NCBI RefSeq assembly: GCF_036924645.1
Contig: NZ_JAZHRX010000001.1
Coordinates: 7,082,352-7,146,351, forward strand
Direction of reading: 5' to 3'
Length of the DNA stretch: 64,000 nucleotides
From: Bradyrhizobium sp. AZCC 2176
GTDB taxonomy: Bacteria > Pseudomonadota > Alphaproteobacteria > Rhizobiales > Xanthobacteraceae
The translations under genes and the position numbers were made by a program. Of the stretch, positions 35,660 to 50,104 are shown one piece after another (the stretch's first letter is position 1; every line of letters begins with the position of its first letter). Below the pieces are notes generated by a model. The model was not told the origin of the DNA, ran no database searches, and worked only from the letters and a program-made list of their open reading frames with translations.

Positions 35660-36403
35660 TCAGGCGCTGACCGAGAGCGATGCGGTGGCGCCCGATGAAA
35701 TTGCATGAGCCTGACGCTGAATCATCTGCTCGATGAAATTGTAGGACGATGTCGCTGACGCGGACGAGCTCCCGCTCGCGGCCGATGTCATCGTTACCTT
35801 CGATCCGTCCGCATAGGTCAGCGACGTCGTCACCGAACCGTCGCTGTTGGTGACGGACGTGGTGGAAGCGCCCTGCAGGGCCTGCGAGAATGGATCGGAA
35901 CCTGCGCCGCCACCGCCCGCCTCGTCGCGATCGCTGTGATGGCCCTTGCCGCCCTTCAGCGCCGACGCCAGCTCCTTGAGGCTGATCGAACCGTCGCCAT
36001 CCGTATCGAGCTTGCCGAAAGCATTGCCGGCTTGGGCGGCCTTGTTGGCGTCGGCGCCGAGCGCCTCGAACTCCGATTTGCTGATCTTGCCATCACCGTC
36101 GCTGTCGACCTTGGCGAACCATTCCTTCAACGACTTTGAGCGCATCGACAGCGACGATACATTCGAGCTGGACTGGCTCTGTGCATCAAGCAGCGCGCTC
36201 ATGGTCTGCGGCGATATCTGCGAACCGCCGCCGCCGGAACCCGAGCCCGAGCCGACCGAAGCCGACGAACCCGAGGACATGAGATCGAACGGGCTCTTGG
36301 CGTCCTGGCTGAGGCCGGTGGATTGCGCGGACGACGACTTCGACGACGTCAGCGCCTTGAGGGCATCGATCGCCGACGACGCGGCGCCCAAAGCAAAGAA
36401 CAT
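35660..36403 (-). CDS. EF-hand calcium-binding protein
   Basis: A 247-residue Ser/Gly-rich protein with two canonical EF-hand loops, DSDGDGKISKSE and DTDGDGSISLKE (about residues 99-110 and 132-143). They are separated by an Ala-rich helix and together would form one calcium-binding EF-hand pair. The flanks are low-complexity: a serine-rich N-terminus, GSGSGSGGGG before the EF-hands, and a serine/alanine C-terminus. No clear signal peptide is seen. The ATG at 36401-36403 has GGAG eight bases upstream. EF-hand proteins of this pattern are common in Bradyrhizobium; the role is unknown and may be calcium sensing or buffering. Confidence 0.85.
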   Translation of the reverse strand: MFFALGAASSAIDALKALTSSKSSSAQSTGLSQDAKSPFDLMSSGSSASVGSGSGSGGGGSQISPQTMSALLDAQSQSSSNVSSLSMRSKSLKEWFAKVDSDGDGKISKSEFEALGADANKAAQAGNAFGKLDTDGDGSISLKELASALKGGKGHHSDRDEAGGGGAGSDPFSQALQGASTTSVTNSDGSVTTSLTYADGSKVTMTSAASGSSSASATSSYNFIEQMIQRQAHAISSGATASLSVSA

Positions 36404-36659
36404 GGCAAAACTCCAACAACGCCGCGCCGGTCGCGGCCGATAGCTCGTGCATGTTCTTCAGCAAGCGCCGTGCCAGGATGAAAAACCCAATAAAACCGGG
36501 CTTTCCCGCATCCGTTTCGATCCGGCAAACCCGGCAATAGATGCCCGCTCCGGCAGATTTTTCCCGCCCACAGGACAGCTTGGCGGTCGCATTGCCCCCG
36601 GCCGCGCTGCATGTTACGCGGAGCCATCCTGCCCCTCGAAGAGATCTGGGAAAGCGCAC

Positions 36660-37361
36660 ATGTCTCAGCAATTTGCGTCGCGTCCCCTCGTCATCGCGCC
36701 GTCGATCCTGGCGGCGGATTTCGCCAAGCTGGGCGAAGAAGTCCGCGCCGTGGACGCGGCCGGCGCCGACTGGATCCATCTCGACGTGATGGACGGGCAT
36801 TTCGTGCCCAACATTTCCTACGGTCCCGACGTCATCAAGGCGATGCGCCCGCACACCAAGAAGATCTTCGACGCGCATCTGATGATCTCGCCGTGCGATC
36901 CCTATCTCGAAGCGTTTGCAAAAGCAGGCTGCGATCACATCACCGTCCATGCCGAGGCCGGCCCGCATCTGCATCGCTCGCTGCAGGCGATCCGCGCGCT
37001 CGGCAAGAAGGCCGGCGTCTCGCTCAACCCGGGCACGCCGGCCAGCGCGATCGAATATGTCATCGACCTGATCGATCTGGTGCTGGTCATGTCGGTCAAT
37101 CCCGGCTTCGGCGGCCAGGCTTTCATCAAGTCAGCGCTCGGCAAGGTCAGCGACATCAGGGCGATGACCGCGGGACGTGCGATCGATATCGAGGTCGATG
37201 GCGGCGTGGCCCCTGACGTGGCCGGCCAGTTGGCCGCCGCCGGCGCCAATGCGCTGGTCGCGGGCTCGGCGGTATTCAAGGGCGGCACATTAGAGGCCTA
37301 CAAGGCCAATATTTCCGCGATCCGTCACGCGGCGGCGCTGGCGCGCGGCGAAGCGGTCTGA
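36660..37361 (+). CDS. rpe: Ribulose-phosphate 3-epimerase
   Basis: A 233-residue TIM-barrel enzyme that interconverts ribulose-5-phosphate and xylulose-5-phosphate in the pentose phosphate and Calvin pathways. Seen are the N-terminal [17 protein letters not shown], the metal/catalytic [48 protein letters not shown] and the phosphate-binding [12 protein letters not shown] with [14 protein letters not shown]. The length is standard. The start is the ATG at 36660; an upstream frame extends into non-coding sequence. It is chromosomal and monocistronic, with no cbb genes adjacent, so it is likely the housekeeping copy. Confidence 0.95.
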
Positions 37362-37509
37362 CGAAAAACGCAGCGAGCCGGCAAGAAAGCCACAACAGGC
37401 GCGCAGCGAGCCATGGAACCGGAAAGCTCCATGCTGCGGCCACAAAGCGTCACGCATCTCGCCATAAAGGCGGATCAACATTGCGGCCTTTCATGGATGG
37501 GACGCGAAT

Positions 37510-37881
37510 ATGATCAAGGCCTACACCACCACCGCCGCCATGCTCCTGCTACTCGCGCCCTCCGCCGCGCTCGCGCAACGCGCAGGTGACGCCGCACTAG
37601 GCGCGGTGGCCGGTGCCGTCGTGCTGGGCCCCGTCGGGGCCGTCGCCGGAGCGTTCGTCGGTTATACGGCCGGACCTTCGATATCGCGGTCGTGGGGACT
37701 GGAAGGCTCGCGGTCGTCGCGGCACCGCAGGCAGTCTTCAAGGGACAGCGTGCGCGGCGCCAGGGCGGAAGCCGCAAGCCCCGCCGGTCAGGCCGAACAG
37801 AGCGGCCGCATCGCCAGTCGCCCCGTGCCGAACCCGCCGCGTTCAGCCAGCAAGCTGCCGCCCGTCCAGACCCTCGACTGA
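37510..37881 (+). CDS. Small exported protein with glycine-zipper-like segment
   Basis: A 123-residue protein with a clear Sec signal (TTTAAMLLLLAPSAALA-QR). A Gly/Ala-rich hydrophobic stretch AALGAVAGAVVLGPVGAVAG follows, continuing AFVGYTAGPSIS, as in glycine-zipper envelope proteins. The remainder is basic, Ser/Arg/Pro-rich and low-complexity, ending NPPRSASKLPPVQTLD. It starts at the ATG 37510. It is probably periplasmic or inserted in a membrane. I know of no function; the long positively charged tail could contact cell-wall polymer or nucleic acid. Confidence 0.65.
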   Translation: MIKAYTTTAAMLLLLAPSAALAQRAGDAALGAVAGAVVLGPVGAVAGAFVGYTAGPSISRSWGLEGSRSSRHRRQSSRDSVRGARAEAASPAGQAEQSGRIASRPVPNPPRSASKLPPVQTLD

Positions 37882-37953
37882 GCGCACGCGCCGCCTGATC
37901 CGATGCTGGATCATGACGCGATAGAATCGCATCGTGATCTCATCTCTTTGTTT

Positions 37954-38029
37954 GAGCATGATCTCCGCGCAAACGCGTTCCGCGTTTGTCGCGAGGGAAA
38001 ACCGGAATCCACTTTTCCGGATCATGCTC
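37954..38029. repeat. Palindromic element GAGCATGATC...GATCATGCTC
   Basis: Ten-base perfect outer arms (GAGCATGATC / GATCATGCTC) enclose a GC-rich inner hairpin CGCGCAAACGCG-TTC-CGCGTTTGTCGCG and a CCGGAATCCACTTTTCCGG stretch. It lies between the small exported gene and the convergent kinase-USP gene and touches the latter's stop codon. It is related to the elements at 35570 and 17989. Confidence 0.7.
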
Positions 38030-39453
38030 TAGCCACCTTCCTGCACCGGCGCAGACGCCGACCGCGGCGGCCGCACCACCGTCACGGTGCAGGCGGCCTC
38101 GGCCGCGACCTTGGCTGACACGCTGCCGAGCAGCGTGCGCAGCATCGAATTCTGCCGCGCCCCGATCACGATGTGATCGACATGATTGACCCTGGTAAAT
38201 TCCAGGATCGCGGCCGCGGGATCGATTGCCTCCAGCACATGCACCGTGAGCCGGCTTTCGTCGAGTTGCAGCGGCTGCGCCCAGTGCCGCAGCGCGACCA
38301 TGCGGTCGATATGCTTGTTGTTGCCCTGCTCGTCGAGCGTCCTGTCGATGGTGATGCGCCCGAGCTTGAGCACGTTCAGGCAGGCGAGCCGCGCCGACGG
38401 CAATGTCTGGAGTAGCTGCGCAGCGGTGCGGCGCAGGCATTCATTGAGCGCGATCGACCCCTCCTCGGTATCGACCGCAACGACCACGATCGATCCCGAA
38501 GCAAGCTGGGCCGCGACGTCGGATTTCGGTTGCGGCAGCGTCACGCCGCGATTGAAGCGGCGGCGCCACACCGTGGAGAGCGGGTCGCGCTGCAGCCGTT
38601 CTGAGCGCGCCGTCAGCTTGACTTGCTCAGGGTGCGCCAGTTCGAACGCCAGTTGGGATGCCGTCGGATGCCGCCACACCGGTTCGATCTCCAGGCAGCG
38701 CAGCACGATTTCCTGCAGCCATGGCGGATAATCGCCCGTTAGCCTGCGCGGCGGATAGGGATCGCGCCACAGCCGCCGGCGCATGCCGCGCAGCGTTTCG
38801 CTCTCGCCGAACGGCCGCTCGCCGGTGGTAAAGAAATACAAAAGCACGCCCAGCGAAAACAGATCGCTGCGCGGATCGTCGCGGACGCCGAGCAGGCGCT
38901 CGGGTGCCATATAGGGCGCGGTGCCGTAGGGCAGACGAAATTCTTCCTGCAGCAGGTCCGGCAACTGGTTGTGATGCGACAGGCCGAAATCGATCAGCAC
39001 GCATTCGCCGGAGGTGCGAAACATCATGCTGCTCGGCTTGATGTCGTGGTGAATGACGTTCTGCCGGTGCAGGTCCGCCAGCGCGGTCGCGATCTTGCCC
39101 CCGATCACCCTCGCCTCTTCGTAAGGAAGCGGCAATTCGCCGATCCGGCTATACAGCGTCTTGCCGGGGATGCGCTCCATGACGACGTAGGGCCGCCGGT
39201 CGAAATCGCCGGTGCCGAAACAACCCGGCACGTGCGGGCCCGCCAGCCGCGGCAGGATCATCTGCTCCATCTCGAAGCTGACGATCGCCGCCGGGTCCTC
39301 GCCTTCGGCAACCCGCGGGACCTTCATCAATAGCGGCACCGTGATGCCGGGATGGGTCACCGTCCATAGCGTCGCCATGCCGCCCTGGTGGACGCACTCG
39401 CCGATCGTGAAGCCGTCGAGTTCGGCGCCAGGTCCGATTGCAGGCTTTGCCAC
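38029..39453 (-). CDS. Ser/Thr protein kinase fused to universal stress protein domain
   Basis: A 474-residue bifunctional protein. Residues about 15-280 are a Hanks-type kinase: glycine-loop region CVHQGGMATLW, ATP Lys44 (LLMKV), catalytic HHDIKPSS with Asp137 (HHD replaces HRD), metal DFG with Asp155, and YMAPERLLG. Residues about 325-470 are a universal stress protein domain (SIVVVAVDTEEGSIALNECL, VDHIVIGARQNSMLRTLLGS, AACTVTVVRPP). There is no membrane segment. The GTG start has GGGAGGTGAGGG before it and lies four bases after the metallophosphoesterase stop, so the two are cotranscribed. A FixK/FNR-type box lies before the operon, which suggests induction at low oxygen. Confidence 0.9.
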   Translation of the reverse strand: MAKPAIGPGAELDGFTIGECVHQGGMATLWTVTHPGITVPLLMKVPRVAEGEDPAAIVSFEMEQMILPRLAGPHVPGCFGTGDFDRRPYVVMERIPGKTLYSRIGELPLPYEEARVIGGKIATALADLHRQNVIHHDIKPSSMMFRTSGECVLIDFGLSHHNQLPDLLQEEFRLPYGTAPYMAPERLLGVRDDPRSDLFSLGVLLYFFTTGERPFGESETLRGMRRRLWRDPYPPRRLTGDYPPWLQEIVLRCLEIEPVWRHPTASQLAFELAHPEQVKLTARSERLQRDPLSTVWRRRFNRGVTLPQPKSDVAAQLASGSIVVVAVDTEEGSIALNECLRRTAAQLLQTLPSARLACLNVLKLGRITIDRTLDEQGNNKHIDRMVALRHWAQPLQLDESRLTVHVLEAIDPAAAILEFTRVNHVDHIVIGARQNSMLRTLLGSVSAKVAAEAACTVTVVRPPRSASAPVQEGG

Positions 39454-39457
39454 CCCC

Positions 39458-40198
39458 TCACCTCCCGATCAGCAGACGATCGGCCAGCCAATGCGGCAGG
39501 CCATTGGCGCGGATGCGTTCGGCAGCGGTTTCCACATCGTAAGGCACGCGGCAATAGGTGATCTCGCGAGACGTCGTATCGAGCATCGCGAACGACGCCG
39601 CTGGGTCGCCGTCCCGCGGCTGCCCGACCGAGCCGAGCACGGCGAGCCAGCGCCGGCCGCCGAGCAATTGCACCGGCACATCGGTGGTCGGAACAAAACT
39701 CGTCATCTTCGCCGCCGATGACATCGAATAGAGCGCCGGCCGGTGGATGTGCCCGCAGAACGTGACATGGGCGTCGGTGGCCGCGATGCTGCGTGCGGCA
39801 TCCGACGTATCGCGCACATAGTGCCATCGCGACGGGTGCGATGCGTCCGAATGCACATAGAGGCGATCATCTTCGCGCCGGGTCAGCGGCAGCTCTGCCA
39901 AAAAGCGCCGTTGCGGCGCACTGAGCCGGCCGCGGGTCCATTCGATCGCAGCCTGGGCCTCAGCGTTCATCGTCTCCGAAGCGGTGCTGATCGCGTGATC
40001 GTGGTTGCCGATCACGGCGATGGCGCCGTCCGCAACGAGGTCCATCACCGTATCGACCGCCCATTCCGGATCGGCGCCATAGCCGACCACATCGCCGAGA
40101 CAGACGATCCGCTCCGCGCCGCGAGCGCGCGCGAACTCGAGACACGCGCTGAACGCCTGCCGGTTGGCGTGGATATCGGCAAAGACGGCAAGCCGCAC
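39458..40198 (-). CDS. Metallophosphoesterase family protein (YfcE/PP-like)
   Basis: A 246-residue calcineurin-like phosphoesterase. The metal ligands are all visible: DIHAN (Asp8, His10), CLGDVVGYGADPEW, IGNHDHAIS, and two C-terminal His groups in YVHSDASHP and VTFCGHIHRPALY. The last pattern GHxH is typical of phosphodiesterases and PPP-like phosphatases acting on nucleotides or phosphoproteins. The GTG start follows a strong GGGAGGAAAC. It is the first gene of a two-gene operon with the Ser/Thr kinase-USP, a natural kinase/phosphatase pair, although its substrate is not shown. Confidence 0.88.
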   Translation of the reverse strand: MRLAVFADIHANRQAFSACLEFARARGAERIVCLGDVVGYGADPEWAVDTVMDLVADGAIAVIGNHDHAISTASETMNAEAQAAIEWTRGRLSAPQRRFLAELPLTRREDDRLYVHSDASHPSRWHYVRDTSDAARSIAATDAHVTFCGHIHRPALYSMSSAAKMTSFVPTTDVPVQLLGGRRWLAVLGSVGQPRDGDPAASFAMLDTTSREITYCRVPYDVETAAERIRANGLPHWLADRLLIGR

Positions 40199-40240
40199 GT
40201 TTCCTCCCTATCCATCATCGCGCCCATACTTGCGCGCGCC

Positions 40241-40254
40241 TTGATGGATATCAA
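40241..40254 (-). promoter_or_regulatory. FixK/FNR-type box, TTGAT-N4-ATCAA
   Basis: TTGATGGATATCAA is a perfect match to the FNR consensus and to the FixK2 pattern TTG(A/C)-N6-(T/G)CAA. It is centred about 50 bases upstream of the metallophosphoesterase GTG, a spacing that fits class II activation (box near -40) with a short leader. Universal-stress genes are frequent members of low-oxygen regulons in rhizobia. The palindrome and position are seen; binding is inferred. Confidence 0.75.
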
Positions 40255-40596
40255 ACAACAGGCCGCCTGCGGCGTGCAATCGGTCCGGGTGCGCCTGCAG
40301 TCTGTTAGGTTGATCAGATCTACCGGCGGACGATAGTGGCACAACCGCGCTCATGCGCCGCCGCAATTACCGCTTTGGGGACCCAAGCCAACGTTCATCC
40401 GCGCCGGCCCAGGCCTCCGCCCGCCGTGCGCCTGAACGTCGTCTGCCGCACGACGTATTGAATCCGCCTGCCAAAACAGGTCTTGAGGGGTTGTTGTCGA
40501 TACACCGCGAATCCAAGAAGTCCAGCGAGTCGTACGCCTCGGCAGCGGGGGACGCGATGTCAGCTTTTACTGCCCCGTTACCTCCTTTGGTCGTGA
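40255..40596. other. Gap with no supported gene
   Basis: About 340 bases between the FixK box and the 3' end of the IucA/IucC-like gene. Frames here (for example 40353-40628 plus, which overlaps the synthetase gene) have no ribosome site or family features. It may be the left junction of the accessory region; I see no repeat, tRNA or integrase trace. Confidence 0.5.
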
Positions 40597-42291
40597 TCAG
40601 CGGAACGTCGTGTGCTCCGCCCTCATGATGCGGCGCCATAGGATGGCCCCGACGGTGTCCGCCTGCTGGCGCAAGTCGCACACGCGCTTCCGGCACGCTG
40701 CCGACGGCGCTTGGGCGACCAGCTCGTCCCACGTCTCTTCCACCGCAATACTCAACTTGGCTAGATCGGCCTGCGCGGCTCGGGCCAGATAGGACATCAC
40801 CTCGCCGAGGTGCCCATACATCATGGCGTGAGCCAGTCGCCGACCACCATAGTCCGGCATGTGCTTCCAAGTTCCGCGTGCAAGCCGCACCCCGTTCGCC
40901 TGCGCTACTGGGCGGATCCGGAGAGGATCGAGGATTGTGCTGTCGAGATCGCGCAGGATCATGCGCGACGGCATGCCGTTACGCAGTACGACGTACACGT
41001 TCTGCAGGTGCGGCTCGAACGCCATGCCCCGTCGCGCATAGAAGTCGACCATACCGTGCATGAGCACACGGCAGTAGACGCGGAAGAATGCGTAGGCGTG
41101 CTCTCGCTCGCGGAAGTCCAACATCGTGCGCGCCCGCTGCGGCCCGCACCAGAGATTTAGCGCCGGGACCACAATCTCCGAGGCATCCGCCAATACCGGC
41201 GCCCGGACGATCATGGCGAGATGCATGCCGATAAATGGATCGGCATGGGCAACTGAGGCCACGTCGTACTGGAAGTCTACATAGCTTTCTCCGCTCTGCC
41301 GCAAAAGGATGCGGGCGAGCGATGAGAAAGCGGTCGCATTCGCGCGATTCAAGGGATAGAGCAGCCGATCTTCCCCCGTCAGTATGACGTCCATCGGCAG
41401 CTTAACGTCGAAGCCGGACCGCAAAATGCGGCACGTCCGCTGCGATGCGAGGGGAATTGCCTCGAGGCGAGTGTCGAGGACCGCAATCCATCGCCGTTTC
41501 AAGAGCTCGCGGATTACTGGCGAGAGCTCGACTTGCCACGGGTGCAGCGGGATCACGACGTCGACGTTTCGAGGAAGGGGAATGCCGGCCCAGGCGCGAA
41601 AGCACGTTCGATAATCCGCGAACGCGCTGGAATCGAACAGGCACGGCCGAGCGGCGACCAACGTCAGATCGATCGCCTTCCGGCAGAGATTCGAGCACTC
41701 AGCCACCTGTCGGGGCGACGGTCCGAGCCGGAGCGCCGGAAACGGATAGTAATGATGGCCCTCATATGCGGGCTCGATGGCCTGCGCACCGGCATCGAGC
41801 CCCTCGGCGATGAGACGGTTCATCACCAGATTGGCGAAGCTGTTGTCGAAATCCGCGATGAGCCGATCGAAATGCTGGGCGAGTTCCGAGGGCTCCACGC
41901 AGAGGCGAAGGGCGTTCAGGAAGGCCCGGGTGCTGCGTAGCGCGCGCCGTCTGCCGGCGACAATCTTCCATGGAAATCCGTTCAGTTCGAGCCGTCGGAA
42001 GGGCAGCGGGCCACCCACCGGCGCCCGCAGCATCGGCTCGTGGCCGAGATCGAGAAACCACTTGCCAGCCTCGCTTTGCCACAGCCGCGCGTGAGGCGCG
42101 TGGCCCTCCCGGAATATCCCCTGGAGCAGCCGCGACACGGCGACGAAAAGCGCGGCCTCGTAGGCGCGCGCTAGCCGCGCCCCGCCGATCCGGCGCTCGC
42201 GGGCCCACTGTCTCACAGCGTGAAGCGTCATGCCACGCCGGAGGCGGCGATGATCAGAGAGGCTCGAAGGCGCCTCTTCCAAGCTCTTCAT
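40597..42291 (-). CDS. IucA/IucC-type (NIS) synthetase-like protein
   Basis: A 564-residue protein of the NRPS-independent siderophore synthetase family, enzymes that adenylate a carboxylate and join it to an amine or alcohol. Family landmarks are EGHHYYPFPALRLGPS (residues 177-192, matching the GH..HP..K.R.G phosphate-binding motif but with Tyr and Ala changes), VVIPLHPWQVEL (246-257), VKLPMDVILTGEDRLLYPLN, and FEPHLQNVYVVL with RDLDSTI. The start at 42291 overlaps the upstream gene by 38 bases; an ATG at 42231 would avoid the overlap, and neither has a strong ribosome site. It is last in a cassette with a diiron enzyme and a small basic protein. No citrate-type siderophore transport genes are nearby, so its product is uncertain. 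Confidence 0.82.
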   Translation of the reverse strand: MKSLEEAPSSLSDHRRLRRGMTLHAVRQWARERRIGGARLARAYEAALFVAVSRLLQGIFREGHAPHARLWQSEAGKWFLDLGHEPMLRAPVGGPLPFRRLELNGFPWKIVAGRRRALRSTRAFLNALRLCVEPSELAQHFDRLIADFDNSFANLVMNRLIAEGLDAGAQAIEPAYEGHHYYPFPALRLGPSPRQVAECSNLCRKAIDLTLVAARPCLFDSSAFADYRTCFRAWAGIPLPRNVDVVIPLHPWQVELSPVIRELLKRRWIAVLDTRLEAIPLASQRTCRILRSGFDVKLPMDVILTGEDRLLYPLNRANATAFSSLARILLRQSGESYVDFQYDVASVAHADPFIGMHLAMIVRAPVLADASEIVVPALNLWCGPQRARTMLDFREREHAYAFFRVYCRVLMHGMVDFYARRGMAFEPHLQNVYVVLRNGMPSRMILRDLDSTILDPLRIRPVAQANGVRLARGTWKHMPDYGGRRLAHAMMYGHLGEVMSYLARAAQADLAKLSIAVEETWDELVAQAPSAACRKRVCDLRQQADTVGAILWRRIMRAEHTTFR

Positions 42292-43003
42292 TCGTGATCG
42301 CGTTGAAGTCGCTCATCCGCTCTTGCATGAGCCGCTTCACCGCGTCGGCCTTGCCCCGCTGCGCAAATTCCTCGATCAGCGCGGCGGTGTATCCGATATG
42401 GCGGGCCTCGTCGACCCGCAGGCGGTCGTGCAGAAGGGCCAAGCGACGCCGCCGCTCGGGCGCGCAGTATGCCAGCAGCATCGGCCGTTGAATGATGTGG
42501 TGCACCAGGGTGCGGATCTCGGCGATGTTCATCTGGATGAGATCGTCGAGCGTGACCGCGCTCGCGTACGGAGAGCCCGCGTGGGCCTCGATCGGGCTTC
42601 GCTGCGTGTAGCCGGGGGACAGCGAAACAAGCCGGGCATGGGACTCGTTGTCGACGATGTCCGGAAAAGTGAGATCCAGCATCGCGACATAGGCTTTGGC
42701 GTGTCTGGACTCGTCGATCGCGTGCGCTTTGACCTGGGCGGCCACGTGGGGATCCGGAGTGGAGGCCGCGAGGTCCCACAGGTGCGCGGAGCCTTCGCCT
42801 TCCCCTTGCGCATTCTGGATGAGCGACAGCGTCATCCAGTTCGGGTCCCTGGCGACGTCGCGGTAGATCTTTTCGTAGTTCTTGGTCCCAAACGGCGGCG
42901 GTGCCTTGCGGCAGGCGGTGACCAGCGCGTCGCGATAATAAGGTCCCGCTGCCCGGTAGTGCGAGCGAAGAGATTTCAGGGTGAGCTCGGCGGCGATGTT
43001 CAC
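42254..43003 (-). CDS. Ferritin-like diiron (AurF/R2-like) protein
   Basis: A 249-residue all-helical protein with a full set of diiron ligands: a Glu in GEGEGSAHLW (68 or 70), Glu98-His101 in DESRHAKAY, Glu162 in AEIRTLVHH and Glu199-His202 in DEARHIGY. This E, ExxH, E, ExxH order fits the ferritin/ribonucleotide-reductase R2/AurF N-oxygenase superfamily. It may hydroxylate an amine (as a siderophore hydroxamate would need) or oxidise a peptide. The start is a GTG behind a strong AGGAGGG. It follows the small basic protein after 25 bases and overlaps the synthetase gene. The substrate is not known. Confidence 0.78.
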   Translation of the reverse strand: MNIAAELTLKSLRSHYRAAGPYYRDALVTACRKAPPPFGTKNYEKIYRDVARDPNWMTLSLIQNAQGEGEGSAHLWDLAASTPDPHVAAQVKAHAIDESRHAKAYVAMLDLTFPDIVDNESHARLVSLSPGYTQRSPIEAHAGSPYASAVTLDDLIQMNIAEIRTLVHHIIQRPMLLAYCAPERRRRLALLHDRLRVDEARHIGYTAALIEEFAQRGKADAVKRLMQERMSDFNAITNEELGRGAFEPL

Positions 43004-43028
43004 AAACCGGCCCTCCTAGCGTGGACGT

Positions 43029-43253
43029 CTAGCCCGGAAGGATTGCCGATCGCCTCTTGAACGGCGCATTTCGCGCTACGAATTTGACCTTTGCAAAGCG
43101 CGCACTTTTCAACGTCTTTTTAAATCTTTCGAGGAGCTTGAAGTCGATTTCAGGGATGCCATCCTTGCTCAACTTACCGAACTCTTGCTCGGGTACCGGC
43201 ACCGCCTTCTTGGCCTTCGCTTTTCTTGCTTTGGACTTCGGACTTTTCGCCAT
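43029..43253 (-). CDS. Small lysine-rich protein, possible substrate or carrier of the cassette
   Basis: A 74-residue basic protein I do not recognise. It has a Lys/Ala tail (AKSPKSKARKAKAKKAVPVP), then an acidic-amphipathic segment EQEFGKLSKDGIPEIDFKLL, and a C-terminal part with ERFKKTLKSARFAKVKFVAR and NAPFKRRSAILPG. It contains no Cys or Trp. The ATG at 43251-43253 has GAGGAGG about nine bases upstream. It heads a tight minus-strand unit with the diiron enzyme (25 bases away) and the IucA/IucC-like synthetase. Size, charge and position are compatible with a modified-peptide precursor or a protein partner, but this is inference. Two CATATG palindromes 18 bases apart (43294, 43312) lie just upstream. 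Confidence 0.6.
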   Translation of the reverse strand: MAKSPKSKARKAKAKKAVPVPEQEFGKLSKDGIPEIDFKLLERFKKTLKSARFAKVKFVARNAPFKRRSAILPG

Positions 43254-43343
43254 CGGTGAATCCTCCTCGAGGGGCACATCAACGATTGCGCGCCATATGT
43301 CAGGCGCCGAGCATATGCAGCCTATGGTCGCTACAAGGTAGTG

Positions 43344-46300
43344 TCAACGGCGAGAGAGCGAAAAGGCACCAGGGGTGGCCATGGCGACCTCAAGCGCCTG
43401 CATCTCGGCCTCGACCTTATCTAGCCAGAACCCCATTCCCATCTCGCGAAATAGGTTCATGGCCGTCGTGAGATGTTCTATCGCACGCCAATCGCCTGCC
43501 CGCCCGAGGAGCTTGCCGACGCTGAAGTGACAATGAGCGACAAGCGGTCGCATACCGAGCTCCGAGGCCAAAGCCGTGGCGGTACCATAGTGAGCTTCGG
43601 CTGCAGCAACGTCCGGGCAGTCACGATGTGACGCCGTCTCGCCGAGGAGCAGGTGGGCCCACGCTTCGTGACCGCGTTCTCCGCACTCGCGGGCAAGCAC
43701 CACGGCTCGGGTGCCAAACTCCCACGCCTCCTCCACCCGATCTGCGAGGAGATGCGCCTCGCCGAGCTGCAGGGTGCTCATCGAGTGCAGGTATCCGATC
43801 CCCGCGGATGCATAGCCGGCCAAGCCTTGCCGCAGCCAGGAGACGCCTTCCTCGACGCGTCCCGAGCGCGCGTAGACGTGCCCCAGAGCCGCCTGCGCGA
43901 TCGGAGTCAAGTAGGCGATATCCCACTCCTGGGACAGAGCGACCGCACGCTCGAGCGGCATGATCGCCTGGATGAAATCTCCGCGTAGGCTTTCGAGGCG
44001 TCCGAGATTCAAGGAGGCCCAGATGAGGCTGAAGGGGTGATCGAGCACTTCAGCGAGCCGGACAGCCTCCTGTCCATGGTTGCGTCCCTCGTCGAACACT
44101 CCGAGTTCAGCGAGGGCGCGCGCCAGGAAGGCGCGCGCCACCACCGCCGGATACGCAACGAGTCCAAGACGCTTGCGAGACAGATCGCCGGGCAGCGCCT
44201 CTATCAACGTCCGGCAGAGGCGTTCGGTTTCGCGATAGTCGCCCGAGCGATTCCCCAGCCAGATGCGGTAGTACCGGCCGGCAACCTGGAGCGGGACATC
44301 ATGGAGAGACGCGCCGATGGCCTCGGCCTCTTCGGCGAACGCGCGCACGTCGCTCGCGCGACCACCCGTGTTCAGGTGAAGGCCGCTCATGTAGCCCGAC
44401 ACCGATGCCAGTCGGCGCCGATCATTCAATTTCTTGGCGAGAGCTTCAGCTTCCCCGAGATACTCTTTGATCTTTCCCCATTCCACCAGCGGGAGCAGAG
44501 CGTTTCGAAGGTCGAAGCGAAGATCGATCCCCTGCTCCAGGCTCTCGCGAGTCACGGGTAGGTGGGTCAACGCCATCAGTGCTTCCTCGAAGCACCTGAC
44601 GGCTTCCCGGTGGACCGAGCGAGCGAGGGCCTTGGCACCGGCTTGCTGAAGGTAGGTGACCGCCTTCGCCCAATCCTGGCCCAGAAACGCATGATGGGAC
44701 AGCCGGTCGACATATTCGGCCAACCGGGCCGGATAGGTTCGCTCGATGGTTTCCACGATTCGCACGTGGAGGGCGCGCCGCCGGTCCTGGAGCAGGCTGC
44801 CATAGGCAACTTCGTGCGTCAGCGCATGCGCGAAGGCGTACTCCATATCCGGCAAGAAGCCGGCCTCGTAGAGGAATCCCGCCGCCTGGAGGCGTCCGAT
44901 CGCGGCACGCAACTCATCTTCGGCGACCTTGGCAATACCTTGCAGCAAGCCAAGCGGCACGTCCTTCCCGAGCACCGAAGCGGTCTGCAGGAGCGTCTTA
45001 TCGGTGGCGGAGAGCCGGTCGATGCGGGCGGCGATCACGGTTTGGACCGTCGCGGGGACCTGGATGGATGGCTGCGGCTGCGCCAACCGGTAGGCCCCAC
45101 GCTCGCCGAGTAGGGCCCTGGTCTCCGCGAGCGACCGCACGCTCTCCTCCAGGAAGAACGGATTGCCCCCCGTCCGCTCGATCAGCGTGTCCTTAAGCGG
45201 TTCGAGACTGGCATCGGGCCCGAGGAGGACGCCGAGAAGCTGCTCAGCGGTGTCCGACGGCAGAGGATCCAGCCGGAGCCGCGTGTAACAGGTGCGGTTG
45301 CCCCAACGGTGCTGATACTCTGGGCGGTAGTTAACAAGCAGCAGCAGTCGGGCAGCCGGCAGGCTCTCGATGAGAACATCGAGCAGTGCTTGGGTCTCGG
45401 AGTCGATCCAGTGGAGGTCTTCGAAGACGACCAGCAGGGGCTGTTTGTGGCTTTCACGCAGCAGCAACCGCTTCAGCGCGTCCAATGTTCGGCGGCGGCG
45501 CTGGGGTGGATCGAGCTTGTCCCATTGCGCATCATCGGCTGGCACGTTCAGCAAAGATAACAGCGCTGGCAAACTGCCGTCCTGCGCGCAATTCTGTGTC
45601 GAGAGCTTCTCTCGCACGGTCTGCGGGTCGTCGCTGTCCACGATCGCGAAGTAGCTCTTAAGGAGGTCGATCACAGGCAAATAACTCGTTCGTTTGCCGT
45701 ACGAGACCGAGGCGCTCTCGAGGACCCGCCAGCCCAGCAAGTGATGCGAGTGGGTGAACTCGTAGAGCAGGCGCGACTTGCCGACCCCTGCTTCGCCGAC
45801 GATCGCCGCGACCTGCCCGTGTCCGGCGGCGGCGAGTAGCAGCGCGCGGCGGAGTTGCTCCAACTCAGCGTCGCGGCCGACGAACCGCGTGAGCCCCCTG
45901 CGTGCGCTCGCTTGCAATCTGTTCCGCGCTGGCCCCGCCTCCGTCACCTCGCAGACCTCGACCAGGTTGGCGAGCCCCTTCACTGGCACGGGACCGAGGG
46001 GCTTCACGCCGACATAGCCTTCCGCCAACCGAAGGGTATCGGCCGTTGCGAGCACGGAGCCGGGATTTGCCATCTGCTCCATGCGAGCCGCCAAGTGTAC
46101 GCTCTGGCCCACGACGGTGTAATGCGTGTGGAGGTCGTTGCCGATGTCGCAGACAACAATCTCCCCTGAGTTCAGTCCGACGCGGATTGTGATGGACAGT
46201 CCGTGAGTGCGCTGGAGAGTTTCTGCATACCGTTTGACGGTCTCTTGCATCCTGAGCGCCGCATGACACGCGCGCACAGCATGATCCTCGTGAGCGAGCG

Positions 46301-46736
46301 GTGCACCGAAGAGGGCCATGATGCCGTCGCCCATCACCCTGTTCACGGTACCTTCGTAGTGGTGCACAGCCTCAATCATGCATTCGAGCACCGGGTCGAT
46401 GAGTTTCTGTGCGTCCTCCGGATCGCGGTCGGCAATCAACTTCGTCGAACCCGTGATATCAGCGAAGAGAACTGTGACCTGCTTGCGCTCGCCATCTAGG
46501 CTTGCCTTGGCCGCGATAATCCTGTTGGCGAGATGCTGCGGCGTGTAATCCTTGGGCGAGGCAAAGCGAGGTTCGCCCGCGACCGGCATCAGGGGATGGG
46601 CGCATTCCGGGCAGAATTTGGCTGTGGCGGAAACCCGGCTCCCACAATTGGGACAGCCTATTATTAGACGTGCCGCGCACTCCTCACAGAACGTAGCTGT
46701 GGCGGGGTTTTCGTGCTGGCACTTCGGACACTTCAT
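43344..46736 (-). CDS. Zinc-ribbon, adenylate/guanylate cyclase, AAA ATPase and TPR protein
   Basis: A 1,130-residue multidomain regulator. Two CxxC zinc ribbons lie at 1-50 (CPKC...CEEC; CPNC...CPEC). A class III cyclase (about 85-260) has the metal Asp in VTVLFADITGSTKLI and VNRVMGDGIMALFG. An NTPase has Walker A VGEAGVGKSRLL (about 310) and Walker B LLVVFEDLHWIDSETQ. A long TPR-like helical half covers about 650-1130. Such proteins resemble the cyclase-linked STAND ATPases common in Bradyrhizobium. I take the ATG at 46734-46736 (GAGGG six bases upstream) over a GTG one codon earlier. It ends 90 bases before the small lysine-rich gene on the same strand, so read-through into that cassette is possible. 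Signal and product are unknown. Confidence 0.88.
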   Translation of the reverse strand: MKCPKCQHENPATATFCEECAARLIIGCPNCGSRVSATAKFCPECAHPLMPVAGEPRFASPKDYTPQHLANRIIAAKASLDGERKQVTVLFADITGSTKLIADRDPEDAQKLIDPVLECMIEAVHHYEGTVNRVMGDGIMALFGAPLAHEDHAVRACHAALRMQETVKRYAETLQRTHGLSITIRVGLNSGEIVVCDIGNDLHTHYTVVGQSVHLAARMEQMANPGSVLATADTLRLAEGYVGVKPLGPVPVKGLANLVEVCEVTEAGPARNRLQASARRGLTRFVGRDAELEQLRRALLLAAAGHGQVAAIVGEAGVGKSRLLYEFTHSHHLLGWRVLESASVSYGKRTSYLPVIDLLKSYFAIVDSDDPQTVREKLSTQNCAQDGSLPALLSLLNVPADDAQWDKLDPPQRRRRTLDALKRLLLRESHKQPLLVVFEDLHWIDSETQALLDVLIESLPAARLLLLVNYRPEYQHRWGNRTCYTRLRLDPLPSDTAEQLLGVLLGPDASLEPLKDTLIERTGGNPFFLEESVRSLAETRALLGERGAYRLAQPQPSIQVPATVQTVIAARIDRLSATDKTLLQTASVLGKDVPLGLLQGIAKVAEDELRAAIGRLQAAGFLYEAGFLPDMEYAFAHALTHEVAYGSLLQDRRRALHVRIVETIERTYPARLAEYVDRLSHHAFLGQDWAKAVTYLQQAGAKALARSVHREAVRCFEEALMALTHLPVTRESLEQGIDLRFDLRNALLPLVEWGKIKEYLGEAEALAKKLNDRRRLASVSGYMSGLHLNTGGRASDVRAFAEEAEAIGASLHDVPLQVAGRYYRIWLGNRSGDYRETERLCRTLIEALPGDLSRKRLGLVAYPAVVARAFLARALAELGVFDEGRNHGQEAVRLAEVLDHPFSLIWASLNLGRLESLRGDFIQAIMPLERAVALSQEWDIAYLTPIAQAALGHVYARSGRVEEGVSWLRQGLAGYASAGIGYLHSMSTLQLGEAHLLADRVEEAWEFGTRAVVLARECGERGHEAWAHLLLGETASHRDCPDVAAAEAHYGTATALASELGMRPLVAHCHFSVGKLLGRAGDWRAIEHLTTAMNLFREMGMGFWLDKVEAEMQALEVAMATPGAFSLSRR

Positions 46737-47112
46737 CACCGGCCCTCAGCGGGCATAGGCTGGAAGCGGAGGGTACAAACGCAGCCATATTGCCGTTAGC
46801 AGCAAGGCACGTAGCGCTCTCCGGTCCTGGATATGCCGTCAACTGAACTTACTGGAAGCGCCTCGGTCGCGATAGTCGAGTGTGAAAGCTTTCATTGGCA
46901 GTTCTCTAGGGAATCGCCAGTCGCGGCAGTTTCTCACATCTGCTTCTTGATCTTTCGGGGTCAGGAGCGTCCGGCGACCGTCCTCCACCGATCGGCAACG
47001 CCCAAGGCTCCACTTCCGCTTTGGGTTAACGTGAGACCTCGGCACTTGATTTTGGCGTGGCCGCTTCGTGGGAAAAGGGCTTGGCCTTACAGTTCGGATT
47101 ACAGAACAATCG
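46737..47112. other. 376-base gap, lower GC, no supported gene
   Basis: It lies between the cyclase/ATPase gene and the TetR gene. Frames of 60-100 codons exist but none has a start with ribosome site or recognisable family. The base composition appears lower in GC than the flanks, as is often seen at island edges. It includes TCCGCTTTGGGTTAACGTGA, which resembles a degenerate part of a common Bradyrhizobium intergenic sequence. Nothing more can be said. Confidence 0.5.
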
Positions 47113-47709
47113 TCAGCCCTTCCGCGGCGCTTCCAACCCCCTGAGCAGCAGCGTCAGCAGCGCATCGATCCGAGCCGGGGCACCCGGCTCGTTCCATTCT
47201 TCGGCGTGTGCGGGATGGTGGAAACGGCTGGTGGCATCGAAAATGGCGCGCGCCGTCACCTTGATGTCGGCGACCTCGAACGCGCCCTGCTTCACGCCGT
47301 CGGACAGGATCAGGGCAATCTGGTCGACCAGGCAGTCCTTGTGGCAGCTCACGGATTTGCAGGCCTCGCGGGCCAGCGCCAGATAGGTCGCAAACATCTC
47401 GGGATCGTCACTAAGCCGCTTGTGCTTGATCGAAAACATCGTGCGCAGCCACTTCTCGAGCCGGGCCGGCGCCGGGCCGGAGCTTTCCGCGATCTTCAGG
47501 AGAGGTGCGCTGAGACGGTCGAGCCAGCGCTTGGCCACCGCCTCGCGCAGCGAGGCCTTGCTGGGGAAATGGCGGTAGACGCTGCCGTGGCTGACATCGA
47601 GGGCGCGGGCGACATCCACCACGGTGGCCTTGGCGAGCCCATAGCGGCGCAAAACGTCCTCGGTCACCTCCAGAATTCGTTCGGGGGTCAGAACCACGAC
47701 TTCGTTCAT
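47113..47709 (-). CDS. TetR-family transcriptional regulator
   Basis: A 198-residue repressor. The N-terminal helix-turn-helix is visible as RILEVTEDVLRRYGLAKATV, VDVARALDVSHGSVYRHFPS and KASLREAVAKRWLD. The C-terminal ligand domain ends DALLTLLLRGLEAPRKG. The start is the ATG 47707-47709 with AGGTG upstream; a GTG two codons earlier is possible. A short ORF precedes it, and a 24-base palindrome covers the promoter of that unit (47977-48015), consistent with autoregulation. The inducer and other targets are unknown. Confidence 0.9.
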   Translation of the reverse strand: MNEVVVLTPERILEVTEDVLRRYGLAKATVVDVARALDVSHGSVYRHFPSKASLREAVAKRWLDRLSAPLLKIAESSGPAPARLEKWLRTMFSIKHKRLSDDPEMFATYLALAREACKSVSCHKDCLVDQIALILSDGVKQGAFEVADIKVTARAIFDATSRFHHPAHAEEWNEPGAPARIDALLTLLLRGLEAPRKG

Positions 47710-47784
47710 GCGCACACCTGCGAAACGATGGGACGGGTGGTCATTTAATCCCCCTTGTAATTCCGTGTAATCCCCTAGGGCGGG

Positions 47785-47898
47785 TTAATGTTTCACGATC
47801 GGTTCCAGCCGCTCGGCCTGGGCGGCCAGATGACGGGCGACGCTCTGGTTGAGCCAGCGCTGGATCTGGGCGGTCAGATGAATGAGATGGGCAGTCAT
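47785..47898 (-). CDS. Short leader ORF before tetR
   Basis: A 37-codon frame, MTAHLIHLTAQIQRWLNQSV then ARHLAAQAERLEPIVKH, predicted to form one amphipathic helix. The ATG 47896-47898 has AAAGGA eight bases upstream. It is about 75 bases before the TetR start and about 70 bases inside the predicted mRNA. It may be a real small protein cotranscribed with tetR or a regulatory leader peptide; I know of no family. Confidence 0.4.
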   Translation of the reverse strand: MTAHLIHLTAQIQRWLNQSVARHLAAQAERLEPIVKH

Positions 47899-47976
47899 TA
47901 GCGTAGTCCTTTGCAAGTACCCGGGCTCCAAAACCTTAAGAGCCGGGTGACGCCCTAACACCGGCGTCGGCAATGG

Positions 47977-48015
47977 ATATAGCATGTCCCGCTGACAGAT
48001 TTCAATATCTGTCAG
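47977..48015 (-). promoter_or_regulatory. Palindromic operator overlapping the tetR promoter
   Basis: CTGACAGAT-N6-ATCTGTCAG at 47992-48015 is a perfect nine-base-pair inverted repeat. On the minus strand a -35 (TTGAAA, 48005-48000) sits at the centre of this palindrome and a -10 (CTATAT, 47982-47977) lies 17 bases downstream. A TetR dimer bound there would block the promoter of the short ORF and tetR. The sequence features are seen; that this TetR binds it is inferred from position. Confidence 0.7.
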
Positions 48016-48074
48016 TCAATAAACCGTGATTGTTGGGGCCGGCCGGGCGCTACACCATCCTCATCGCCGGAAGC

Positions 48075-48683
48075 CTATGGCTCGTCCTTCGGCGGCATCC
48101 GCGGCGGCAATAGCGGCGTAAACGCCACCCCATCGCCATCGCGAGGCGCCGCAACCAATCCGCCGCCCGTCGAGGGATCGCCGCCCGAGGTGTCCAGGAT
48201 CATGCCGGGCGTGATGTATTCGCGGGCGGCCTGGAGCAGGCTGCCGCCGCCATCGCCAAAATCGGCGGCACGACCGCCCTGCGGGCGGCCGGCGGCGATC
48301 TCGCCAGCGGCCTTGTCGGTCTTTTCCGCAAGCCTGTCGCTGTAGGGAATGCGAAACGCCCGCGGGACGCCGCTTGGCCGGTTGCCGTCGTCGAGCGCCT
48401 CGACCCAGAGATAGATCGCGCCCGGATCGCCCTCCAGCGAGTGCGGCTCGACGATCCGGGCCTGCAACAGCTTGAAGCTTGCGGGCAGCCTGTCGACGCT
48501 GGCCCAGCCCAGCAATCCGCGCACGCCGACAAAGCTTGCGATGTAGAACGCGCTCGTCACCACCACGGCAACCGCCTTGGCCGACCACGGCACGCGCGCA
48601 TAGACCAGAACGATCAGCAGCAGCGCGCCGATCAGCGCGTAGCTGATGGAGAGCGTGAGGACGACCGATTGCAGGCTATTCAC
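48075..48683 (-). CDS. Membrane protein, third gene of an ExbB/TolQ-like operon
   Basis: A 202-residue protein with two predicted membrane helices near the N-terminus (VVLTLSISYALIGALLLIVL and AVAVVVTSAFYIASFVGVRG). A soluble domain follows (FKLLQARIVEPHSLEGDPGA, IYLWVEALDDGNRPSGVPRA) and a Gly/Pro-rich C-terminus. The start is a GTG that overlaps the TolR-like stop by eight bases, so translation is coupled. I recognise no known family. With the two upstream genes it forms a compact unit that looks like an ion-powered envelope machine. Confidence 0.7.
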   Translation of the reverse strand: MNSLQSVVLTLSISYALIGALLLIVLVYARVPWSAKAVAVVVTSAFYIASFVGVRGLLGWASVDRLPASFKLLQARIVEPHSLEGDPGAIYLWVEALDDGNRPSGVPRAFRIPYSDRLAEKTDKAAGEIAAGRPQGGRAADFGDGGGSLLQAAREYITPGMILDTSGGDPSTGGGLVAAPRDGDGVAFTPLLPPRMPPKDEP

Positions 48684-49350
48684 GGCGCGGCATCCTGACG
48701 CCGGTTTTCGGGTCCAGGTCCGCACCGTTGGCGCGGACGTTGCGGAACGTCTCCATCAGCGACTTCTGCCGCTGCTGGACGTCGACCACCTTGCCTTCGG
48801 CATCGAGCCAGAAGCGCAATGCGGTCTTTTCCTCGCCGGTGTGGTCGAGCGTCAGCTTGTTGTCGAAGATCACCTGCGCGGTCGGATTGAGCTTCTGCAC
48901 TTTTACGCTCACCGCGACGGGCTGCCCGGTGGTGGCCTGAAAATGCGAGACGTTGACGGTGTATTCGCCGGGCACGATGCCGCGCACGGTGACGATTTCC
49001 TCCCGGACCGGCGACAGAATCTTTTTGCCGCTGACGATGATGAAATCGTTCGCGCCGCCGCGATCGTCGCGATCGAGGGTGAGGAAACCGGCCTCGCGCC
49101 GGCGGTACCAGGCGATGTTGCCGGCGGGGTCCTGCACGAACAGATCGAAGTCGTCGGGATGATTGTCCGGCCAGTCCATGGTGATGAGGAATTCGGCCTT
49201 GGAATCGATCTTGCCGTCCTTGGCGTCCGGCGAGACCGCCAGCAGCGCCAGGAAGAACAGGAACGCGATCACCTGCAGCGCCTTGAACAGCATCACGCCG
49301 AGCGGGTCGAACGGCTCCTCGCGCGGATAGAGCCCGAAATCATCCATCAT
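48676..49350 (-). CDS. TolR/ExbD-like single-span protein
   Basis: A 224-residue protein with one N-terminal membrane helix, REEPFDPLGVMLFKALQVIA followed by FLFFLALLAVSP. Asp15 in PFDPLGVML sits where ExbD/TolR have their proton-carrying Asp (compare PLVDVML). The rest is a periplasmic-type beta domain (EFLITMDWPDNHPDDFDLFV, DPAGNIAWYRRREAGFLTLD, GEYTVNVSHF) unlike ExbD's. It overlaps the ExbB-like gene by eleven bases. It is proposed to couple proton flow through the ExbB-like channel to an unknown periplasmic job. The function is inferred from arrangement. Confidence 0.7.
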   Translation of the reverse strand: MMDDFGLYPREEPFDPLGVMLFKALQVIAFLFFLALLAVSPDAKDGKIDSKAEFLITMDWPDNHPDDFDLFVQDPAGNIAWYRRREAGFLTLDRDDRGGANDFIIVSGKKILSPVREEIVTVRGIVPGEYTVNVSHFQATTGQPVAVSVKVQKLNPTAQVIFDNKLTLDHTGEEKTALRFWLDAEGKVVDVQQRQKSLMETFRNVRANGADLDPKTGVRMPRRE

Positions 49351-50104
49351 GGTGGCGTTCCAGAACCGGCGTGACGTGCGTCTCGGTCAGCATGACGGCG
49401 TCGGAAAACACCCGCTGGGTCGCGGCATCGAGCATGTAATATTGAATGCGGACGAGGATGGAGCCGACCAGGCCGGCCAGCGTCGTGTACATGGCCACCG
49501 CCATGCCATCGCTCATCAGGCCCATCGAGGATTTCATCGCGGCCTTGTCGGCCGCATCGAGGGTGGCGATCGGCGCCAGCATGATGATGAAGCCGATGAT
49601 GGTGCCGAGCAGCCCGAGCTTCATCAGCGTGTCGGACACGAATGCGCCGAACCCGTTGGAGCCGCGCAAACGGTCGGCAAGCGACCGCAGCAGCAGCGTC
49701 TGGTCGATACGCCCCGCGGCTTGCGCCTTGGCCTTCTTCACCAGGTTGCGGATGTGATCCGGCACCAGGCCGCCCGGCAGGGCGCGCGCGTCATCAAGTC
49801 CCCTCGCCCCGCCGGGCGCCGACAGGATGGCGCGGCAGCGGCGCGTAATCTCGCCCTCGCGCGCGATCGCGCGCGTCCGCCAGAAGCAATGGAAGCAGGT
49901 GACGAAATAAAGCACGGCAATGACGCTCGAAATGTAGGTGCGGTCGGAACTGACCATCAGATGGAGCAGTCCGTATCGCCACAACAGCACGACGGCGAAG
50001 ATCGACAGCCCGGTGAAGATCATCCACAACAGGAGGACGCTGCGCTCGGACGTGTCCGTGTCAGTGGCGGAGGGCGCGGTCTCGGCGCTGGCCGTGGCAC
50101 TCAT
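49340..50104 (-). CDS. MotA/TolQ/ExbB proton channel family protein
   Basis: A 254-residue membrane protein with four predicted helices (about 23-42, 59-75, 161-183, 198-226). It has the family core TLMKLGLLGTIIGFIIMLAP and GLMSDGMAVAMYTTLAGLVG followed by SILVRIQYY. The large cytoplasmic loop between helices 2 and 3 (about 85 residues) is typical of TolQ/ExbB. It starts the three-gene minus-strand operon with the TolR-like and third membrane gene. No tolB, tonB or pal is adjacent, so it is probably neither the Tol-Pal nor a TonB energiser. Confidence 0.85.
   Translation of the reverse strand: MSATASAETAPSATDTDTSERSVLLLWMIFTGLSIFAVVLLWRYGLLHLMVSSDRTYISSVIAVLYFVTCFHCFWRTRAIAREGEITRRCRAILSAPGGARGLDDARALPGGLVPDHIRNLVKKAKAQAAGRIDQTLLLRSLADRLRGSNGFGAFVSDTLMKLGLLGTIIGFIIMLAPIATLDAADKAAMKSSMGLMSDGMAVAMYTTLAGLVGSILVRIQYYMLDAATQRVFSDAVMLTETHVTPVLERHHDG

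Follow-up and report, generated by a model that had tools for sequence, protein, structure and literature searches.

Several described systems come close to the locus reported here. In the MNIO/DUF692 RiPP pathways (methanobactin, nitrilobacillin), a small precursor gene lies beside an O2-using multi-iron enzyme; nitrilobacillin is reported to use MNIO and 2-oxoglutarate enzymes with an asparagine-synthetase-like ligase (PMC13060819). AurF-type ferritin-like diiron oxygenases carry an E/ExxH/E/ExxH ligand pattern, and NIS synthetases (AcsD, AsbB, IucA/IucC) are characterised by a domain pair and an EPHLQN active-site stretch. Some lasso peptides are reported to be phosphorylated and glycosylated by an HPr-kinase homologue together with a nucleotidyltransferase (PMC8498205).

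The cassette described here, found in a 64-kb stretch of Bradyrhizobium DNA (the window), shares something with each. It resembles the MNIO pathways in having a small candidate precursor gene next to a predicted O2-using multi-iron enzyme, but differs in the absence of an MNIO match, in its ferritin-like ligand pattern and in its NIS-type ligase. The ligand pattern is that of AurF, whereas all AurF matches fall below the gathering score, no PDB sequence relative was found and the diiron gene here adjoins a peptide gene. The synthetase has the NIS domain pair and the EPHLQN stretch, yet is 564 residues or less in length, is distant (E 5e-7 to AsbB) and has no siderophore genes seen nearby. Likeness to the phosphoglycosylated lasso peptides comes from two related loci (L008, L009), in which HPr-kinase-like and nucleotidyltransferase-like genes lie near the peptide–diiron pair; neither domain reaches its cut-off, a lasso protease was not seen and the genes are absent from the window cassette. 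Finally, a cyclase protein recalls the TOMM kinase/cyclase and Pycsar systems through its TIGR03903 layout and PycC domain match, but no TOMM enzyme or Pycsar effector lies in the cassette. A limited literature search, in sources available in part, found neither a ferritin-like diiron enzyme nor a NIS synthetase in a RiPP pathway, nor a pathway like the one proposed here.

We consider it reasonably likely that the cassette encodes a RiPP pathway in which the diiron enzyme would oxidise an FVAxNAPF core, the NIS synthetase would ligate a carboxylate and the cyclase protein would regulate. If true, this would be a new way to build a peptide natural product.

Layout and conservation of the cassette

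The initial annotation had described a small Lys-rich protein, a diiron enzyme and an IucA/IucC-type synthetase encoded together on one strand. The sequence bears this out, with the three ORFs all on the minus strand. A fourth gene, encoding a cyclase/AAA/TPR protein upstream, belongs to the cassette; this gene, the apparent mobility of the cassette and the C-terminal FVAxNAPF motif had been missed. The features, in window coordinates, are as follows.

43029..43253, minus strand: small basic Lys-rich ORF of 74 aa with an ATG start, the proposed RiPP precursor
43059..43082, minus strand: codons for FVARNAPF (residues 58-65), the proposed core; F[VI]AxN[AGS]P is present in 9/11 diiron loci
42254..43003, minus strand: ferritin-like diiron ORF of no named family, 249 aa with a GTG start; six ligand residues invariant
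40597..42291, minus strand: NIS (IucA/IucC-type) synthetase, both PF04183 and PF06276 above their cut-offs; likelier start, 42231
43344..46739, minus strand: zinc-ribbon/nucleotide cyclase/AAA/TPR protein (Pfam domains), probable regulator; same position in L017, L007 and L002
40382..47020, no strand: block common to the window and L017 at 93% identity (blastn of window 36000-50000 against L017)
40370..40379, minus strand: CCCAAAGCGG, direct repeat at one block end; two copies in the window against 0.21 expected
47016..47025, minus strand: CCCAAAGCGG, direct repeat at the other block end, same counts; sought after the block ends were seen

Shine-Dalgarno-like stretches precede the small ORF (GAGGAGG, 43262-43268) and the diiron ORF (AGGAGGG, 43011-43017), and the gap between these two ORFs is 25 nt, as originally described. 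The tight packing of the genes stands, but the overlap claimed for the diiron and synthetase genes is doubtful. It requires the ATG at 42291, whereas an in-frame ATG at 42231 leaves a 22-nt gap instead; the latter start is likelier because the synthetase relatives in L002 and L007 begin past their own diiron stop. Among the 16 window ORFs scanned with Pfam, no siderophore receptor, exporter or flavin hydroxylase was seen, in agreement with the initial annotation. Neither a protease nor an exporter lies inside the cassette, and Pfam gave no PqqD match (a leader-binding domain, PqqD/RRE) there.

Conservation of the genes together in other genomes had been named beforehand as the test of the original proposal. 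The order cyclase, peptide, diiron enzyme, NIS synthetase is kept in all four subtype-1 loci, which span two phyla: the window, L017 (same genus), L002 (a Candidatus Rokuibacteriota MAG, whose cyclase is truncated where the contig ends and was read in two pieces) and L007 (from the phylum of L002). Beyond subtype 1, the peptide and diiron genes recur together. Seven further loci (L008 to L012, L018 and L019, fetched as 17-20 kb) contain no synthetase or cyclase relative at E<=1e-3 and carry other modification genes. Since these make up 7 of the 11 diiron loci, the constant unit is the peptide with the diiron enzyme, and the synthetase is an added module; the same count suggests that the diiron enzyme works in connection with the peptide rather than in making a siderophore. 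The 11 loci amount to 10 independent ones, as L009 and L012 are identical at all but 3 of the 8,500 positions compared.

The diiron family is rare among the genomes searched. A set of 60 genomes yielded it in the Bradyrhizobium genome itself only. It was found in at least 2/397 genomes of the order (narrow profile A2, 27 chosen rows), at least 1/385 of the class (among the candidates scored, the own genome only) and at least 4/265 and at least 4/257 of the genus (two profiles), these three levels being lower bounds with 5 to 9 first-look candidates scored per genome. The phylum of L002 gave 2/95 genomes (2/94 in a second search), the family of genome G366 gave 1/87, and plasmids gave 4 of 72,556 records.

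The diiron enzyme and its peptide partner

The complete E/ExxH/E/ExxH diiron site read from the original sequence is confirmed: E68, E98xxH101, E162 and E199xxH202 are invariant in all 30 chosen rows of alignment A3, and the equivalent residues in all 8 chosen rows of the more diverse A6. Neither Pfam nor NCBIfam matches the window protein at E<=1, and the PDB sequence search returned a single, irrelevant match (E 0.27). Homologues number 362 at E<=0.001; of the best 120, three have ncbi as their source and nearly all others jgi, lgn or ena. The one Rokubacteria relative found in a genome contig scan is 74% identical. The more distant member in L008 has 424 homologues at E<=0.001, the best 120 of which include Longimicrobium terrae, Rhizobium grahamii, R. 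ruizarguesonis, Bradyrhizobium sp., Tardiphaga sp. and an actinobacterium. Because the family is sizeable, corresponds as far as we could find to nothing in Pfam, NCBIfam or PDB and is encoded beside a candidate peptide substrate, co-expression could reveal new enzyme chemistry.

Three described enzyme types were considered and set aside. AurF (PF11583) does not match the window protein, and the weak matches elsewhere (3 of the 30 A3 members, plus L018 and L019) lie below the 29.6-bit gathering score. MNIO (DUF692) has no Pfam match in the window protein or the A3 members. Haem-oxygenase-like diiron oxygenases have a three-histidine/three-carboxylate ligand set (PMC13108848); the ligands here, four Glu with two His, do not fit it. 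Many subtype-2 diiron proteins in A3 (for example P0147, L009) end in a CxxxCCxxxxxC tail, possibly a metal or disulfide site; the window subtype is without it.

Of 29 candidate homologues of the small protein, 26 pass E<=0.1, and Pfam, NCBIfam and PDB sequence searches returned no family for it. V56, F58, A60, N62, A63, P64, F65 and R67 are invariant in 27/27 peptide rows. All 11 loci have a small ORF ahead of the diiron gene, and F[VI]AxN[AGS]P is absent only from L019 and L011. The mere presence of such an ORF is weak evidence: among 104 long ORFs in nine fetched loci, 42 have a same-strand ORF of 50-200 aa ending within 100 nt upstream. It is the sequence evidence that counts. When 950 small ORFs from eight other loci were searched with the subtype-1 peptide profile, four scored E<=1, and all four adjoin the diiron gene (L002, L007, L008, L010). 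The L009 peptide, which fell outside that set by length (longest reading 179 aa), scores E 0.0029 with the same profile. Thus for subtypes 1 and 2 a short ORF for a candidate precursor with a conserved core lies next to a putative modifying enzyme. With a joint peptide profile, the L018 and L019 peptides ranked behind unrelated ORFs (E 9.9 and 8.4) and so were not recovered; they resemble the others in position and to the eye. The peptide of L011 is unrelated by profile (E 48). For these reasons the pairing is only suggested for subtype 3.

Comparison of the window with L017 gives the peptide a dN/dS of 0.63 (32 nonsynonymous and 14 synonymous differences), a weak constraint; the three larger genes range from 0.18 to 0.30. 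The dS of the peptide gene (0.34) exceeds that of the larger genes (0.08 to 0.14). Together with an 11-residue difference in length between the window gene (43029-43253) and its counterpart (L017:7126-7383), the higher dS looks as if the peptide gene had been swapped between cassettes.

In pearlin pathways a small molecule is built at the C-terminus of a peptide and then cut off. A scaffold role of this kind would suit the position of the conserved motif close to the C-terminus, NAP being followed by 3 to 10 residues in the nine motif-bearing loci. We regard it as very improbable here: the terminal residues vary, and Pfam showed no aminoacyl-tRNA ligase or protease in the cassette.

The partners of the diiron relatives are of peptide- and amino-acid-modifying types, which we count in favour of the RiPP reading. 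L008 carries, on the same strand, nucleotidyltransferase-like and HPr-kinase-like genes (both under cut-off) and an aldo/keto reductase; a second HPr-kinase-like protein, a radical SAM/SPASM protein and PqqD genes are on the other strand. L009 (L009:3840-16010, NZ_CP090100.1) and L012 are Rhizobium leguminosarum conjugative plasmids in which the peptide–diiron pair is accompanied by PEP mutase, phosphonopyruvate decarboxylase, a cytidylyltransferase, asnB, TauD and a methyltransferase. They also encode an HPr-kinase-like protein, which scores under cut-off, and a nucleotidyltransferase-like protein sharing 34% identity with its L008 counterpart. L018 contains JmjC/cupin and PCMT genes, and L019 a 2OG-Fe oxygenase and a methyltransferase. 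The JmjC, 2OG oxygenase and PCMT matches exceed their own cut-offs; those of the HPr-kinase-like and nucleotidyltransferase-like proteins do not. We read these loci as a peptide core that would be served by swappable tailoring genes.

Some of these loci invite separate remarks. The pathway of L009 and L012 could possibly yield a phosphonate-bearing peptide. At L018:8557-11700, the peptide ends in FIACNGPMET and is found with the diiron gene, the JmjC/cupin gene and a protein-isoaspartate methyltransferase-like protein; the Gly after the conserved Asn would suit PCMT chemistry. A Dolichospermum plasmid (L011:7486-9971) pairs a diiron relative with JmjC, and its 71-aa peptide, with a GG stretch, shows a weak likeness, below cut-off at E 0.005, to the leader of class I lanthipeptides.

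Constant adjacency to the diiron gene would be expected of an accessory or regulatory subunit as much as of a substrate, and the Lys-rich N-terminus is well conserved within subtype 1. The small protein could therefore resemble the small components of diiron monooxygenases, with a free small molecule as the true substrate that the synthetase would then join to a carboxylate. We think this unlikely, since between subtypes the N-terminus changes completely and the short C-terminal motif stays; the lanthipeptide-leader likeness of the L011 peptide, sub-threshold as it is, also speaks against a subunit.

The synthetase and the proposed pathway

Assignment of the third protein as an IucA/IucC-type synthetase was correct: PF04183 scores 62.6 bits (curated cut-off 25) and PF06276 scores 59.3 bits (curated cut-off 25.2). 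It is the sole IucA/IucC match in the host genome. For AcsD, E442 is the proposed general base, and H444, R305, R501 and K563 are also named (PMC3323832). The EPHLQN stretch is shared with AcsD, and E426, H428 and R485 of the window protein align with E442, H444 and R501; R309 aligns with R305 in a stretch scoring an insignificant -0.9 bits, and K563 lies outside the alignment. The synthetase is probably active, and citrate is a possible donor. A search of the genus with the NIS profile A4, which includes the two genus sequences recovered at full length, found full-length relatives in at least 2/257 genomes, both with the subtype-1 cassette; nine other genomes gave partial matches of E 1e-9 or weaker.

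Alignment with AcsD and AsbB, retention of most catalytic residues and the lack of another IucA/IucC gene in the genome would all suit a plain NIS siderophore or metallophore pathway in which the small ORF is incidental. We judge this distinctly unlikely, given that no receptor or exporter was found among the 16 scanned ORFs, that the peptide is kept in 4/4 subtype-1 loci and that the peptide–diiron pair occurs without the synthetase. The initial annotation had offered a modified peptide or a small metallophore in which the diiron enzyme replaces the usual hydroxylase. The conserved order and the recurring pair support the first half of that proposal; the second found no direct support.

From the pairing of peptide and diiron enzyme we infer the following chemistry for the favoured RiPP pathway. 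The small ORF would encode a precursor composed of a leader, with a G-x-hydrophobic...G element, and the C-terminal core FVAxNAPF. The ferritin-like enzyme would bind this peptide and use O2 to oxidise a core residue, most likely by C-H hydroxylation or a related two-electron oxidation. In subtype 1, the NIS synthetase would activate a carboxylate, perhaps citrate, with ATP and couple it to the modified peptide through an amine or hydroxyl. Expression is probably under the control of the cyclase/AAA/TPR protein. Several points count against this pathway: the cassette contains no protease or exporter, the tail past NAPF is variable and presents the synthetase with no constant nucleophile, the peptide gene is under weak constraint, small upstream ORFs are common by chance, and the subtype-3 peptides do not join the others by profile. 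A bolder version, which we put forward tentatively and with considerable doubt, is that a diiron oxygenase acting on the FVAxNAPF core defines a RiPP class, of which one mobile branch recruited a NIS synthetase to attach citrate or another carboxylate; this would unite a peptide encoded by a gene with the chemistry of siderophores, the product possibly being a metallophore.

Apparent mobility and the cyclase protein

The window and L017 share a block of ~6.6 kb (47020 to 40382; 93% identity over 6,685 alignment columns by blastn), and nothing else is common to the compared stretches. The 10-bp direct repeat CCCAAAGCGG is found at both ends of this block and nowhere else in the 64 kb, and two or more matches occurred in 1 of 100 shuffles. 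As the block ends at this repeat, the cassette looks mobile. An ORF ~0.3 kb past the block end in L017 is presumably an IS110-type transposase. Composition shows no clear step at the cassette, no tRNA lies within the window, and a repeat search inside the cassette gave nothing usable.

The cyclase/AAA/TPR layout matches TIGR03903 (TOMM kinase/cyclase) at 323 bits, short of the 705.75 cut-off, so that identity was rejected. The cyclase domain also matches the PycC models of PADLOC (best 1.1e-25). That match, with the apparent mobility of the block, would fit a cassette for anti-phage defence centred on the cyclase, a reading to which we give almost no credence: PADLOC matches only this widespread domain and none of the other three cassette proteins, and the host genome holds seven long cyclase paralogues at 29-34% identity. 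A Pycsar system was likewise dismissed, with the domain alone matching and no effector in the cassette by PADLOC.

Just outside the mobile block, window 38029-39453 encodes a fusion of protein kinase and universal stress protein domains, and an adjoining gene (39458-40198) encodes a calcineurin-like phosphoesterase.
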